A stretch of DNA of 34,887 nt, taken from the NCBI GenBank assembly GCA_937873225.1, contig CALMVN010000189.1, positions 1-34,887 of the forward strand. Reading direction: 5' to 3'. How positions within the stretch are numbered: the first letter of the stretch is position 1; every line of letters begins with the position of its first letter. This document shows positions 3,297 through 8,629 of the stretch, piece by piece. This stretch comes from an uncultured Acetobacteraceae bacterium. Its GTDB lineage: Bacteria > Pseudomonadota > Alphaproteobacteria > Acetobacterales > Acetobacteraceae. The notes under the pieces are model-generated. The model was not told where the DNA came from. It searched no databases and was given only the letters and a program-made list of their open reading frames with translations. The position numbers and the translations under genes were made by a program.

Positions 3297-3518
3297 ATGG
3301 CAGATCACGGACAAACCACCGGCAACGTTCCGGTCGAAGGCATCGATCCGGGCGGCACGCATAAGGCGCCGGGCGGCAACGCCCTGAAGAAGGGGCCGGG
3401 CGACCATCCGGGCGCCGCTCCTGCGGTGGAAAGCGGCGACCGCAACACCGCCCCCAATCCCGGCATCCACGATGACGACCACGCCGGACACGGCAGCCAC
3501 GAGCATCGCTCTGTTTGA
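3297..3518 (+). CDS. Small hydrophilic His-rich protein (73 aa), unknown
   Basis: The ATG has a strong AGGAGG ribosome binding site 10 bases upstream, which is the main support for the gene. The product is Gly/Pro/Asp/His-rich and probably disordered, beginning MADHGQTTGNVPVEGIDPGG. It ends in a histidine- and aspartate-rich tail (HDDDHAGHGSHEH) that could bind divalent metal. There are no membrane segments or signal peptide. Its last 47 bases overlap the start of the acyl-CoA dehydrogenase-like gene in another frame, so it may be the first gene of that operon and couple its translation. No family recognised. Confidence 0.5.
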   Translation: MADHGQTTGNVPVEGIDPGGTHKAPGGNALKKGPGDHPGAAPAVESGDRNTAPNPGIHDDDHAGHGSHEHRSV

Positions 3519-4626
3519 GCCGGCCCTGTTCGACCGGCTGCGTGCCTCGCTGCCGGAGATCGAGGCCGAGGCCGGACGCTGCGACCGCGACGGGGCGTTC
3601 CCGGAGCAAGGCATCGCGCTGCTTCGCGAGGCCGGTGCGCTGTCCGCTCCCCTGCCGGCCACGGCCGGCGGCTTCGGGCTCGGCACCGAACCGGCCGGCG
3701 CGCTCGGGATGCTGCGCCTGCTCCGCCTGGTCGGCGCCGCCAACCTGTCGCTCGGGCGGCTGTTCGAGGGCCACGTCAACGCCCTGAAGCTGCTCGTGCG
3801 CTACGGCACCGCGGTGCAGGCGCAGGGCGCGGCCAACGCGGTCCGCGACGGCGCGCTGTTCGGGATCTGGGTCACCGAGGGCACCGACGGGTTGCGCTAC
3901 ACCCAGGACGTGCCCGGCGCACCGCTTCGGCTCGAAGGCGCCAAGCTGTTCGCATCCGGTGCCGCGCAGGTGACGCACCCGCTGGTCACCGCCCGGTCGC
4001 CGGACGGCGACACCCGGATGATGCTGGTGCCGCTCCGCGACGACCGCCAGGCCAGCGCCATGCCCGCCTCGCTCGCCGGCATGCGCGGCGCCTGCACCGG
4101 ACGACACGACTTTTCCGGCCTGGTCCGTCCGGCGGACGCACTGGTCGGCGCGCCTGGCGACTACCTGCGCCAGCCGGAGTTCTCCGCCGGTGCCTGGCGC
4201 GGCATGGCGGTGGCGCTGGGCGGCATCGACCGGCTCGTGTCGCTGTTCTGCACCGGGCTCGCCAGCCGCGGCCGCGACAACAACCCGCACCAGCAGGTCC
4301 GAATCGGCGAGGCGCTGATCGCCCAGGAAACCGCGGCCTTGTGGACCCGAAAGGCGGCGCTGGTGGCGGAAGGCGACCGGTTCGATCCGGCCGACGTGGC
4401 GGCCACCGTCAACCTGGCGCGGATCGCCTGCGAGACCGCCGGCCTCGATGTGATCCGCCTGGTGCAGCGCGGGCTCGGCCTGTCTGCGTTCCTGGCCGGC
4501 AGCGAGGTCGAGCGGGTGATGCGCGACCTCGCCACCTACCTGCGTCAGCCGGCGCCGGACGAGACCCTGGTCGAGGGCGCCGCCTGGTTCGCCGGCCGCA
4601 CCCTGCCGGACGCGGACGCCGCATGA
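3472..4626 (+). CDS. Acyl-CoA dehydrogenase family flavoprotein (PIG-L cluster)
   Basis: A 384-residue protein with the acyl-CoA dehydrogenase fold. The helical N-terminal domain is about residues 1-120 (LFDRLRASLPEIEAEAGRCD). The central beta domain contains the IWVTEG substrate/FAD-loop segment and LEGAKLFASGA. The C-terminal helical domain ends with VERVMRDLATYLRQPAPDETL. Classical members oxidise the alpha-beta bond of acyl-CoA with FAD; this branch is divergent and the usual catalytic Glu cannot be placed with confidence, so a monooxygenase-like or other acyl-oxidising role is possible. The start at ATG 3472 has no strong ribosome binding site and lies within the previous small gene. The stop overlaps the ATG of the deacetylase gene (ATGA). 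Confidence 0.8.
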   Translation: MTTTPDTAATSIALFEPALFDRLRASLPEIEAEAGRCDRDGAFPEQGIALLREAGALSAPLPATAGGFGLGTEPAGALGMLRLLRLVGAANLSLGRLFEGHVNALKLLVRYGTAVQAQGAANAVRDGALFGIWVTEGTDGLRYTQDVPGAPLRLEGAKLFASGAAQVTHPLVTARSPDGDTRMMLVPLRDDRQASAMPASLAGMRGACTGRHDFSGLVRPADALVGAPGDYLRQPEFSAGAWRGMAVALGGIDRLVSLFCTGLASRGRDNNPHQQVRIGEALIAQETAALWTRKAALVAEGDRFDPADVAATVNLARIACETAGLDVIRLVQRGLGLSAFLAGSEVERVMRDLATYLRQPAPDETLVEGAAWFAGRTLPDADAA

Positions 4627-5360
4627 CCGCCCGATCGGCCGGCACGCTGCACCACGGGTTCCGGGCGCTGCCGCTCGCCCCGCTGGACCGGATCGTGCCC
4701 GGCACCGCCCTGGTGCTGGCGCCGCACCCGGACGACGAAAGCCTCGGCTGCGGCGGGCTGATCGCCGAGGCCTGCCGGGCCGGCCGGCCGCCTTTGGTGG
4801 TGGTGGCGACCGACGGCGCCGGCTCGCATCCGAACTCGCCCACCTGGCCGGCGCCCCGGCTGCGCGACCGGCGCGAAGCGGAAACCCGGGACGCGGTCGC
4901 CTGCCTCGGCCTGCCGCCCGGCCGCCTGGCCTTTCTCCGCCTTGCCGACACGCAGGCCCCGCGCGAGGGGCCGGCATTCGAGCGGGCGGTGGACCGGCTG
5001 GCCGCCCTCGCCACGACCCATGGCTGCGACACGATCCTGGCGCCATGGCGTCACGACCCGCATTGCGACCACGAGGCGGCCTGGCGCATGGCGGAAGCGC
5101 TGGCGGCACGCGGCGGGCAGCGCCTGCTCGCCTACCCGGTCTGGGGCTGGCTGATCCCGCCGGACACGATGCTCGACGCGCCCGAGCCCGAAGGCTGGCG
5201 GCTTCCGATCGGTCCGCACCTCCAGGCCAAGGCCCGGGCGATCCGATCGCACCGGACCCAGTACGGCGCGCTGATCACCGACGATCCGGACGGCTTCCGC
5301 CTGCCGCCGGCGCTGTTGTCGGTGTTCGAGGCCCCGTTCGAGGTGTTCCTCCTGTCATGA
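4623..5360 (+). CDS. PIG-L family N-deacetylase
   Basis: A 245-residue zinc-dependent deacetylase of the PIG-L/LmbE family, whose members remove N-acetyl groups from GlcNAc-linked substrates (GlcNAc-PI, MshB and BshB substrates). The metal-binding signature APHPDDESLGCGG is near the N-terminus (His35, Asp38). A second ligand motif HDPHCDH covers residues 144-150. The rest of the fold is visible as VVVATDGAGSHP and RDRREAETRDAVACLGL. The ATG overlaps the stop of the acyl-CoA dehydrogenase-like gene, and its own stop overlaps the methyltransferase ATG, so the three are translationally coupled. The substrate is unknown; the neighbours suggest an amino-sugar conjugate. Confidence 0.9.
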   Translation: MTARSAGTLHHGFRALPLAPLDRIVPGTALVLAPHPDDESLGCGGLIAEACRAGRPPLVVVATDGAGSHPNSPTWPAPRLRDRREAETRDAVACLGLPPGRLAFLRLADTQAPREGPAFERAVDRLAALATTHGCDTILAPWRHDPHCDHEAAWRMAEALAARGGQRLLAYPVWGWLIPPDTMLDAPEPEGWRLPIGPHLQAKARAIRSHRTQYGALITDDPDGFRLPPALLSVFEAPFEVFLLS

Positions 5361-5941
5361 GCGGCGGGAGCTGGCCGGCCGAGGTGTTCGAGCGGCTCTA
5401 CGCCGGAAGCGCCGATCCCTGGGGCTTCGAGACCAGCGCCTACGAGCGCGCCAAGTATGCCGACACCCTGGCGGCGCTCGACGGGCGCCGCTACCGCAGC
5501 GGGCTGGAACTCGGCTGCTCCATCGGGGTGATGACGCAGGCGCTGGCGGCGCGCTGCGACGCCCTGCTCGCGATCGACATCAGCGCAACCGCGCTCGCCC
5601 ATGCCCGGACCCGCTGCGCGGCCCTGCCCGGCGTGCGGTTCGTGCAGGCGACGCTGCCGGACGAACTGCCGGCGCTCGACGGCAACTCCTGCGACCTGCT
5701 GGTGCTGTCGGAGCTGCTCTACTTCCTGAGCCCCGACGACATCGACCGGCTGATGGGCGGCGTGCTGGCGGCCAGCGCGCCGGACGCCGTGATCCTGCTG
5801 GTGAACTGGACCGGCACCACCAACACGCCCTGCACCGGCGACGAGGCGGCCGAGCGTGCCCGCGCCTGCTGCGCCCGCGCCGGCCATCGCCTGTCCGGGC
5901 CGCTTCGCCGCGAGGGCTACCGCGTCGACCGGATCGCCTGA
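5357..5941 (+). CDS. NodS-like class I SAM-dependent methyltransferase
   Basis: A 194-residue methyltransferase. The N-terminal ADPWGFETSAYERAKYADTL matches the NodS signature (DPW...SxYExxKYxxTL). The SAM-binding motif I is ELGCSIGVMTQALA, followed by LLAIDIS and the acidic motif LLVLSELLYFLS. In rhizobia NodS N-methylates the deacetylated terminal glucosamine of the Nod factor after NodB has removed the acetyl group. Here the gene directly follows a PIG-L deacetylase, repeating that biochemical order with a non-homologous deacetylase. The start overlaps the deacetylase stop (ATGA). There is no sign of nodulation genes, so the product is probably something else. O- rather than N-methylation cannot be excluded. 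Confidence 0.85.
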   Translation: MSGGSWPAEVFERLYAGSADPWGFETSAYERAKYADTLAALDGRRYRSGLELGCSIGVMTQALAARCDALLAIDISATALAHARTRCAALPGVRFVQATLPDELPALDGNSCDLLVLSELLYFLSPDDIDRLMGGVLAASAPDAVILLVNWTGTTNTPCTGDEAAERARACCARAGHRLSGPLRREGYRVDRIA

Positions 5942-5993
5942 TCGCACCTGTCCCGACGGTGCCGCATCGGCGCGTCGGCCGGATGCGGCGTTC

Positions 5994-7193
5994 CTACCGC
6001 ATGTCCGGCAGGGTCGGGATCCCGGGAGGCCGTGTGCCGTGCGGGCCTGGTGGTGCGGCGGCAACGCCCGGCTGTCTTTGCGCCTTCGGGGTCCGCGTCC
6101 CGGCTGCCTGCTCCAGCCGTCGGACGATCCGTTCCGCCTCGTCCCGATGCCGCGCGAGCTCGGCACGACGGACCGGATGACGGCGCAGGGCCGCGCTTTC
6201 GGCCTCGACCCGGGCCCAGGCGGTGCCGAAATAGCGTTCCTCCAGCCATCGCCCGACCAGGCGAGGCGGCAGCGAAACCAGGGCGGCATAGGCGGACAGC
6301 GCACCCGCCTCGGGCAGGCCGGCGAGGCGGGCGTCCCGGAGGGCAAGCAGGGACGCGCGCGCCTGCGCACGTCGCAGGCAGTCCCCGGCCGGCTCCAGAC
6401 TGTCGTCGAGCATCTCGTCCTGTTGCAGCACGCGGCGGGCGATGGTTTCCGCCATGCCGCCCGGCGCCCGGCCGACGGTGCGGCCGGACACCGTCACCAC
6501 CGCGTCCGGGGCATGGCGGATCCGGCGGTCGGCGCGACGCAGCGCGTGCAGGAAGCCGCGATCCTCGGCCGACGGGAGCGCCGGCACGCCGCCCACGAGG
6601 GCGAAGGCCTGCGCGGTCACGACGATGCTGGCGCCCGAATGCTCGACGTGGCGCGGCCAGGGATCGGCCGGGTCGGGGTCGGCCAGGTGATGGATCCGGT
6701 CGAGCAGGGTGGCGTAGGCGACCTCCGCGTCGTCGTCCCGGTGCAGGTGGGCCGGAATCGCCAGCGCCTCGAGCGGATCGATCTCGGCGCGTCCGCACAC
6801 CACGTCCGCCCCGTGCGCCAGGGCACGGAGGTTGGCGGCGAGCCAGTCGGGCCGGGCGGCGCCGTCGGCGTCGGTGGTGAACAGGATGCCGTCCGGACCG
6901 GCCAGGCCGGCCGCGATCGCCATCGCCTCGCGCCGTGCCGTGCCGGCATGGGCGAAGGCGCGGGGATACAGCCGCTCGACGCAGCACAGCTCGAACGGCA
7001 GGTGCCGGGCGGCGTCCCGGGCGCGACCGGCGGTGTCGTCGCTGCAGTTGTTGAGCAGAAGCACGACGTGGTCGAACGAGGCCCGCTCCTGTTCCCCGAG
7101 CGCACGGAGGCAGGCGGCGATTCGGTCCTCCTCGTCGCGAACCGGGATCGCGACAACGAGCGGACGGGCGAGGAAGCGGTCGAAGCTCGACAC
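5994..7193 (-). CDS. Family 2 glycosyltransferase (PIG-L cluster)
   Basis: A GT-A fold glycosyltransferase. The core starts [20 protein letters not shown], then [16 protein letters not shown], a DxD-type metal/nucleotide-sugar motif in [15 protein letters not shown], and a later ED motif in [14 protein letters not shown]. There are no transmembrane segments, so it is probably cytosolic or peripheral. GTG 7193 (VSSFDRFL) is preferred, with GGA 6 bases upstream; the frame extends to TTG 7244, giving 416 instead of 399 residues, but the extra sequence is not GT-like. The C-terminal 40 residues are Pro/Arg-rich. It converges on the acyl-CoA dehydrogenase/deacetylase/methyltransferase operon, and a shared pathway is inferred. 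Donor and acceptor are unknown. Confidence 0.85.

Positions 7194-7399: not shown

Positions 7400-8629
<1,230 letters not shown>

Follow-up and report, generated by a model that had tools for sequence, protein, structure and literature searches.

The window analysed here, a stretch of 34,887 nucleotides from an uncultured Acetobacteraceae bacterium (contig CALMVN010000189.1), carries a group of four genes that encode an acyl-CoA dehydrogenase (ACAD)-like flavoprotein, a PIG-L/LmbE N-deacetylase, a NodS-like S-adenosylmethionine (SAM)-dependent methyltransferase (MT) and a glycosyltransferase of family 2 (GT2). Comparison with other genomes shows well that these genes form a real, co-inherited and widely spread cassette. 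From the enzyme families, we infer that the cassette would produce an amino-sugar conjugate, small and soluble, that would protect the cell under stress, a reading that we prefer to its rivals and to which we give somewhat less than even weight.

That the genes belong together follows from a survey of 299 Pseudomonadota genomes that included the window's own; counts are given for the 298 others. A search profile built from 13 ACAD-like proteins, with the best six candidates per genome scored at an E-value limit of 1e-20, detected the ACAD-like family in 22 of the 298 genomes at a score of at least 199.9 bits, one of them (G334) having a partial copy only. Since the next match dropped to 96.6 bits, the family is sharply bounded. 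A homologue of the MT (best 10 candidates per genome, E-value limit 1e-20) with at least 138 bits was present in 20 of the 22 ACAD-positive genomes as compared to 0 of the 276 others (table 20/2/0/276). At a threshold of 99 bits the figures were 21 of 22 and 9 of 276 (table 21/1/9/267), the latter nine genomes possessing an MT homologue without the ACAD. The co-occurrence had a Fisher p below 1e-23 at either threshold, uncorrected for genome kinship. Within 5 kb of the ACAD gene, in stretches of 13–18 kb, PIG-L was found in 18, MT in 21 and GT2 in 15 of the 22 genomes, and because all four were this close in 14 of the 22, the grouping is more than a matter of chance. Parts absent from the cassette are mostly located elsewhere in the same genome. 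Four genomes lacked a near PIG-L gene at 100 bits; two of these had distant copies (239 and 247 bits), one had a copy 12 kb off at 171 bits and one reached just 80 bits. Of the seven genomes without a near GT2, five encode one in another part of the genome (at least 191 bits), whereas the remaining two had none at E 1e-15. The ACAD–MT pair was kept in G208 (locus L150) and G086 (L153), where PIG-L and GT2 lie elsewhere, 1 to 3 kb apart. Furthermore, the distances of the four families correlate pairwise (r 0.70–0.89, Mantel p 0.001 for each of the six pairs; 40 to 48 shared loci per pair, from 53 loci picked by ourselves), which indicates joint inheritance rather than joint selection, since shared ancestry of the hosts also produces such a correlation. 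The expectation of an earlier, sequence-only reading that homologues of the four genes would co-occur has thus been borne out, also beyond the Alphaproteobacteria. When the check that it proposed was carried out, co-occurrence held and conservation of gene order did not: the order varies while the membership stays.

Other samples gave comparable pictures. Among contig loci of named genomes, for which the best 80 of 568 relatives were taken (mostly Methylobacterium and Acetobacteraceae, hence not independent, and in part cut by contig ends), PIG-L was within 5 kb in 46, MT in 68, GT2 in 49 and the complete set in 44. The GT2 gene was convergent in 35 of the 80, and elsewhere it came first, or last on the same strand. 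Genomes collected by a kinship search contained a PIG-L match in 22 of 60 cases, the window's own included. Twenty short loci were retained from that search, again including our own; the ACAD was present in 16, and of these 16 had PIG-L, 15 MT and 12 GT2. The plasmid loci L023–L037 carried the ACAD family in 14 of 15 cases, accompanied by PIG-L in 12, MT in 13, GT2 in 12 and all three in 11. Locus L037, which is without the family, was excluded from counts, L035 has the ACAD only, and L190 has a PIG-L gene without the cassette; L191–L195 were assessed from annotation alone.

Carriers of the cassette belong to the Alpha-, Beta- and Gammaproteobacteria, the Deinococcota and the Actinomycetota, and one is a cyanobacterium. 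Plasmids on which all four families were found by profile belong to Komagataeibacter, Bradyrhizobium, Nostoc, Pandoraea, Paracoccus, Acinetobacter, Kitasatospora, Sphingobium, Sulfitobacter and Deinococcus sp. NW-56, and by annotation the set is complete in Novosphingobium, Jiella and Sphingomonas parapaucimobilis. Several copies deviate in composition. The D. radiodurans copy has no GT2 nearby and a helicase gene separates PIG-L from MT; its ACAD open reading frame (ORF; L025:4669-7008), annotated as 779 amino acids, starts with about 400 residues without a Pfam match that precede the ACAD part. The Roseomonas copy has no annotated glycosyltransferase, and the Cupriavidus copy has the order ACAD–MT–GT with PIG-L about 3 kb away. 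On a Rubrobacter plasmid (L031:7099-10917), a polysaccharide deacetylase (PF01522, Polysacc_deac_1, 92 bits) directly precedes the ACAD, no PIG-L is present in the stretch, and a pyridine-nucleotide oxidoreductase is inserted between MT and GT. This swap, a single case, points to N-deacetylation of a sugar as the step, regardless of which deacetylase fold carries it out.

In the window, whose contig stems from a genome of 4.06 Mb, the cassette is located between rlmN (RlmN match at 1113-2378 in a Pfam scan of the flanking proteins) and argG (argininosuccinate synthase match at 7400-8629). A conserved chromosomal site was not found among 102 loci: rlmN and tlyA were near two (L069, L075) and argG near one (L075), so the cassette is mostly sited elsewhere. 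The ORF coordinates, the ATGA overlaps of the three forward genes (ACAD/PIG-L at 4623-4626, PIG-L/MT at 5357-5360) and the 52 bases between the MT stop and the stop of the convergent GT2 gene, all of which had been noted at the first reading, were reproduced. A short ORF upstream of the ACAD gene was dropped because a stop codon lies inside the frame.

The ACAD-like protein (384 amino acids, 3472-4626, forward strand) forms a discrete family and matches Pfam Acyl-CoA_dh_N weakly (23.9 bits, cut-off 22.9). When the family profile was compared with solved structures, MsuC scored highest (94.5 bits), followed by 5z8t and 5gj7 (92; the latter titled 'putative Acyl-CoA dehydrogenase'), DszC (91), the dehydrogenase 2dvl (89.8) and KijD3 (82.9). 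A search with the AlphaFold model (pLDDT 94.4) in Foldseek placed DszC, TdsC, KijD3 and 5z8t/5gj7 at ranks 1–10, at about 20% identity, and 2dvl at rank 11. The ACAD fold is present, with VIA-align Z values of 37.8–39.5 over about 350 residues among the 50 matches listed. At the two aligned base sites, P360 and G240 are invariant (48/48), and a glutamate at the first site occurs in 0 of 13 diverse members. These sites are what we take to be the MCAD site (after RDA..) and the IVD site in helix G; the 2dvl alignment ends just before the first, so that its offset is likewise assumed. Residue H101 is likewise invariant (48/48). A histidine occupies the aligned position in MsuC, 5z8t, 5gj7 and DszC, but 2dvl, the one dehydrogenase in that alignment, lacks it. 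As no glutamate is present at either classical base site and His101 aligns with that of monooxygenases, the protein is more likely a flavin-dependent oxygenase or oxidase than an acyl-CoA dehydrogenase, as judged from alignment and model. The fold, this histidine (in MsuC, DszC and 5z8t/5gj7) and the lack of glutamate at the dehydrogenase base sites are shared with the Group D flavin monooxygenases and nitrososynthases (MsuC, DszC/TdsC, KijD3, ORF36, DnmZ), from which the cassette enzyme differs by its low identity and by being a family with motifs of its own (RDLxxYLRQxxPD and EGHVNA). The earlier suggestion that the enzyme replaces an acyltransferase and leads to an oxidised acyl or thiol group found no support, since the glutamate is missing and flavin monooxygenases rank nearest, although a dehydrogenase scores almost as high as these.

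The deacetylase (245 amino acids, 4623-5360, forward strand; Pfam PIG-L 79 bits, cut-off 28.2) is of the PIG-L and not the NodB type, as had been proposed. It has the motifs HPDDE and HCDH (HxDH), with invariant H35, D37, D38, H147, D149 and H150, and its nearest structures are TT1542 and diacetylchitobiose deacetylases, MshB being further off. A polysaccharide deacetylase of NodB type is not part of the window's cassette, though the Rubrobacter plasmid copy does contain a polysaccharide deacetylase. In two genomes, a weaker second PIG-L paralogue adjoins the cassette (L157:11476-12117 and L158:6032-6709). The MT (194 amino acids, 5357-5941, forward strand; Pfam NodS 51 bits, cut-off 24) carries the motif DPW...YE..K, with invariant D20, P21, W22, Y29, E30 and K33. 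Its profile scores 196 bits with PDB entry 4isc ('Methyltransferase'), almost double the 103.7 bits for NodS (3ofj). A role in anti-phage defence found no convincing match: in PADLOC the MT matches part of mad2 at 45 bits and the other three proteins are unmatched. The GT2 protein (399 amino acids, 5994-7193, reverse strand; Pfam Glycos_transf_2 35.7 bits, cut-off 23.3) is read from GTG 7193, with TTG 7244 as an alternative start. Its model (pLDDT 91.7) has a GT-A fold with a TTDAD motif, and a fold search returned general GT-A enzymes only, with no close solved relative, so that no donor or acceptor is indicated.

Considering these families together, a sequence of reactions can be envisaged in which the GT2 would attach an amino sugar with an N-acetyl group to an acceptor, the PIG-L enzyme would take off that group, and the NodS-like enzyme would methylate the freed amine, the N rather than O site being a prediction. 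The ACAD-fold flavoenzyme would then oxidise the molecule, possibly at the amine, as do the nitrososynthases KijD3, ORF36 and DnmZ, which we take to act on the amine of amino sugars. A transporter or polymerase was no constant member of the cassette loci inspected, which suggests a cytoplasmic small molecule. In its fullest form, the proposal would imply a new class of stress metabolite, a soluble glycoside with an amino sugar that undergoes N-deacetylation, N-methylation and, by an ACAD-fold flavoenzyme, N-oxygenation. Bacteria of at least four phyla would make it beside trehalose and catalase, and plasmids would carry the genes between them; in that form we consider the proposal unlikely.

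Two known pathways use part of this chemistry. Nod factor synthesis (NodC, NodB, NodS, NodA) also combines a GT2, an N-deacetylase and a NodS-like MT, and the cassette MT has the DPW motif of NodS and a following glutamate. The cassette deacetylase, however, has the PIG-L fold, and a flavoenzyme is added; as a member of the NodS equivalog the MT falls far short (NCBIfam NodS 56.6 bits, cut-off 300). The synthesis of bacillithiol and mycothiol (BshA/BshB/BshC, MshA-D) likewise employs a glycosyltransferase and a PIG-L deacetylase, whereas the cassette adds an MT and a flavoenzyme, and its glycosyltransferase is a GT2 where BshA and MshA presumably belong to GT4. Membership of the bacillithiol enzymes was rejected, with 37 bits for BshB1 (cut-off 182.5) and 29.7 bits for BshB2 (cut-off 195.25). 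NodA and the bacillithiol/mycothiol cysteine ligases (BshC, MshC) were not annotated by product name in the named loci inspected; no genome-wide search for the ligases was made.

Two lines of evidence, a pooled test of neighbouring genes and one published table, support a stress setting for the cassette. At the plasmid copies, the annotated neighbours include catalase, OtsA/OtsB, GlgE, CsbD, DUF2171, PA2169-type proteins, Ku and LigD, with catalase in 6 of the 17 annotated loci (L029, L030, L033, L034, L191, L194). A list of stress families, chosen by ourselves from plasmid loci inspected before the test, was then applied to the surveyed genomes, and neighbours from the pooled list occurred at 9 of 22 genome loci versus 0 of 20 control regions (Fisher p 0.001). 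The controls were stretches at arbitrary places that we chose in 20 of the 22 genomes, with none for G131 and G334. TreY, MalQ and GlgX were outside the list, and loci L157 and L158 are hence not among the nine. These two loci, from genomes of one genus, have the order malQ, treY, a small ORF, glgX, ACAD, PIG-L, MT; L158 continues with GT2 and the second PIG-L, and L157 has the second PIG-L, with GT2 on another contig. Among 146 neighbour proteins, called with a rough custom gene caller that reads some frames wrongly, the most frequent of the 25 Pfam families listed were alpha-amylase (6), GT4-type models (5 and 4) and GH77 (3). Catalase, GT20 and trehalose phosphatase were found twice each, as were EAL, GGDEF, BrkB, TonB receptor and chemotaxis domains, and NCBIfam models identified TreY, MalQ, GlgX, OtsA and catalase HPII. 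The sugar and catalase families are absent among the 25 families listed for 140 control proteins.

The published table concerns Acinetobacter baumannii and is used here, like the second paper cited, as far as an excerpt goes. Under one operon label, Table 2 of PMC5660220 gives ACICU_02432 (glycosyltransferase), ACICU_02433 (SAM-dependent methyltransferase), ACICU_02434 (LmbE) and ACICU_02435 (acyl-CoA dehydrogenase-related), names and order being those of the cassettes on the Acinetobacter plasmids L029 and L194. The four genes were down-regulated 31–45-fold and 42–62-fold in two colistin-dependent mutants, and otsA (27, 50), otsB (12, 35) and a catalase (22, 31) stand alongside them among the 33 down-regulated genes listed. 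The excerpt lists ACICU_02432-02435 as regulated genes, with no function assigned, and the condition was neither drying nor oxidative stress (PMC5660220). The same gene row appears beside blsA in PMC6240043.

Several observations weigh against a stress protectant made by an oxygenase. Thirteen of the 22 genome loci have no listed stress neighbour, none of the listed families reaches significance by itself (p at least 0.13), and the window copy, between rlmN and argG, is without stress-gene neighbours. An EcfG-type promoter before the ACAD gene is present in 10 of 95 alphaproteobacterial upstreams as compared to 25 of 500 control upstreams, which is no clear enrichment; 8 of the 10 are Komagataeibacter copies, and the window copy has none. 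The A. baumannii genes were matched to the cassette by names and order and not by sequence. With respect to the flavoenzyme, 2dvl comes near the best monooxygenase in the profile comparison (89.8 and 94.5 bits), the VIA-align values tie dehydrogenases with monooxygenases among the matches listed, and the nitrososynthases ORF36 (69.6 bits) and DnmZ (65.9) score under several dehydrogenases. In 12 of the 80 contig loci the ACAD stands alone within 5 kb. Six of the 17 annotated cassette loci (L024, L029, L034, L036, L194, L195) include a gene named as MFS transporter, which makes export possible. The rank of the nitrososynthases and these transporters slightly lowered our confidence. Finally, no substrate or mutant of the cassette is known, and searches of the open-licence literature, most subscription papers being outside it, turned up no described product, which agrees with the remark of the sequence-only reading that no product of the set had been characterised.

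The EcfG-type element itself (GGAACCAA...CTGTT) stands before the ACAD gene in 8 of 10 Komagataeibacter contig loci (L078, L079, L080, L082-L086). On two sphingomonad plasmids, L033:2676-7956 and L191:2346-7932, the cassette is preceded by genes for a catalase, for a GT4 and for two more glycosyltransferases.

The same GT4 and additional glycosyltransferases would also suit a cassette that tailors a cell-surface or extracellular polysaccharide by deacetylation, methylation and side-chain addition, and the fold matches of the GT2 include polymer-modifying and polymerising enzymes. Flippase, polymerase and export genes are not constant neighbours, however, and the polysaccharide-like PIG-L locus L190 has no annotated ACAD member, which makes this alternative unlikely. 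We regard as improbable, too, that the flavoenzyme acts as a genuine dehydrogenase on an acyl thioester or acyl chain in a cassette for an acylated or oxidised glycolipid, which comes near the original suggestion. The enzyme has the fold of the acyl-CoA dehydrogenases, many of which reach a Z of about 39, and the score of 2dvl is close to those of monooxygenases; moreover, one Komagataeibacter stretch contains an acyl-CoA thioesterase and a GNAT gene, and a Methylobacterium plasmid with the ACAD alone carries an AMP-binding protein. Against such a function speak the invariant P360 and G240 at the aligned base positions, provided that the MCAD and IVD positions are as we assume, and acyltransferase, ligase and acyl-carrier genes are not constant neighbours in annotated loci. 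The PIG-L family includes mycothiol S-conjugate amidase, and arsenic genes are found near two copies, so that one may think of a degradative or detoxifying cassette in which PIG-L would serve as an amidase for damaged conjugates and the flavoenzyme would oxidise what is set free. This is quite improbable in view of the GT2, an anabolic enzyme type that diverges in step with the other genes. A chance neighbourhood of four common enzyme types is hardly credible: each superfamily is large, and plasmid PIG-L matches are commonest in Sinorhizobium (69 of 148 records), a genus outside the ten named for ACAD matches, but the counts for co-occurrence, 5-kb clustering and distance correlation oppose it.

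The four-enzyme set, common to acetic acid bacteria, methylobacteria, sphingomonads, Acinetobacter, Deinococcus, a Kitasatospora and a Nostoc and without a product in the literature searched, marks a gap in our knowledge of how bacteria respond to stress, and one that can be tested directly. Should the product indeed be a protectant, it would stand beside trehalose and the low-molecular thiols among the means by which bacteria meet drying and oxidation, and a function would be assigned to many genes at present called 'acyl-CoA dehydrogenase', 'PIG-L deacetylase' or 'nodulation' methyltransferase.

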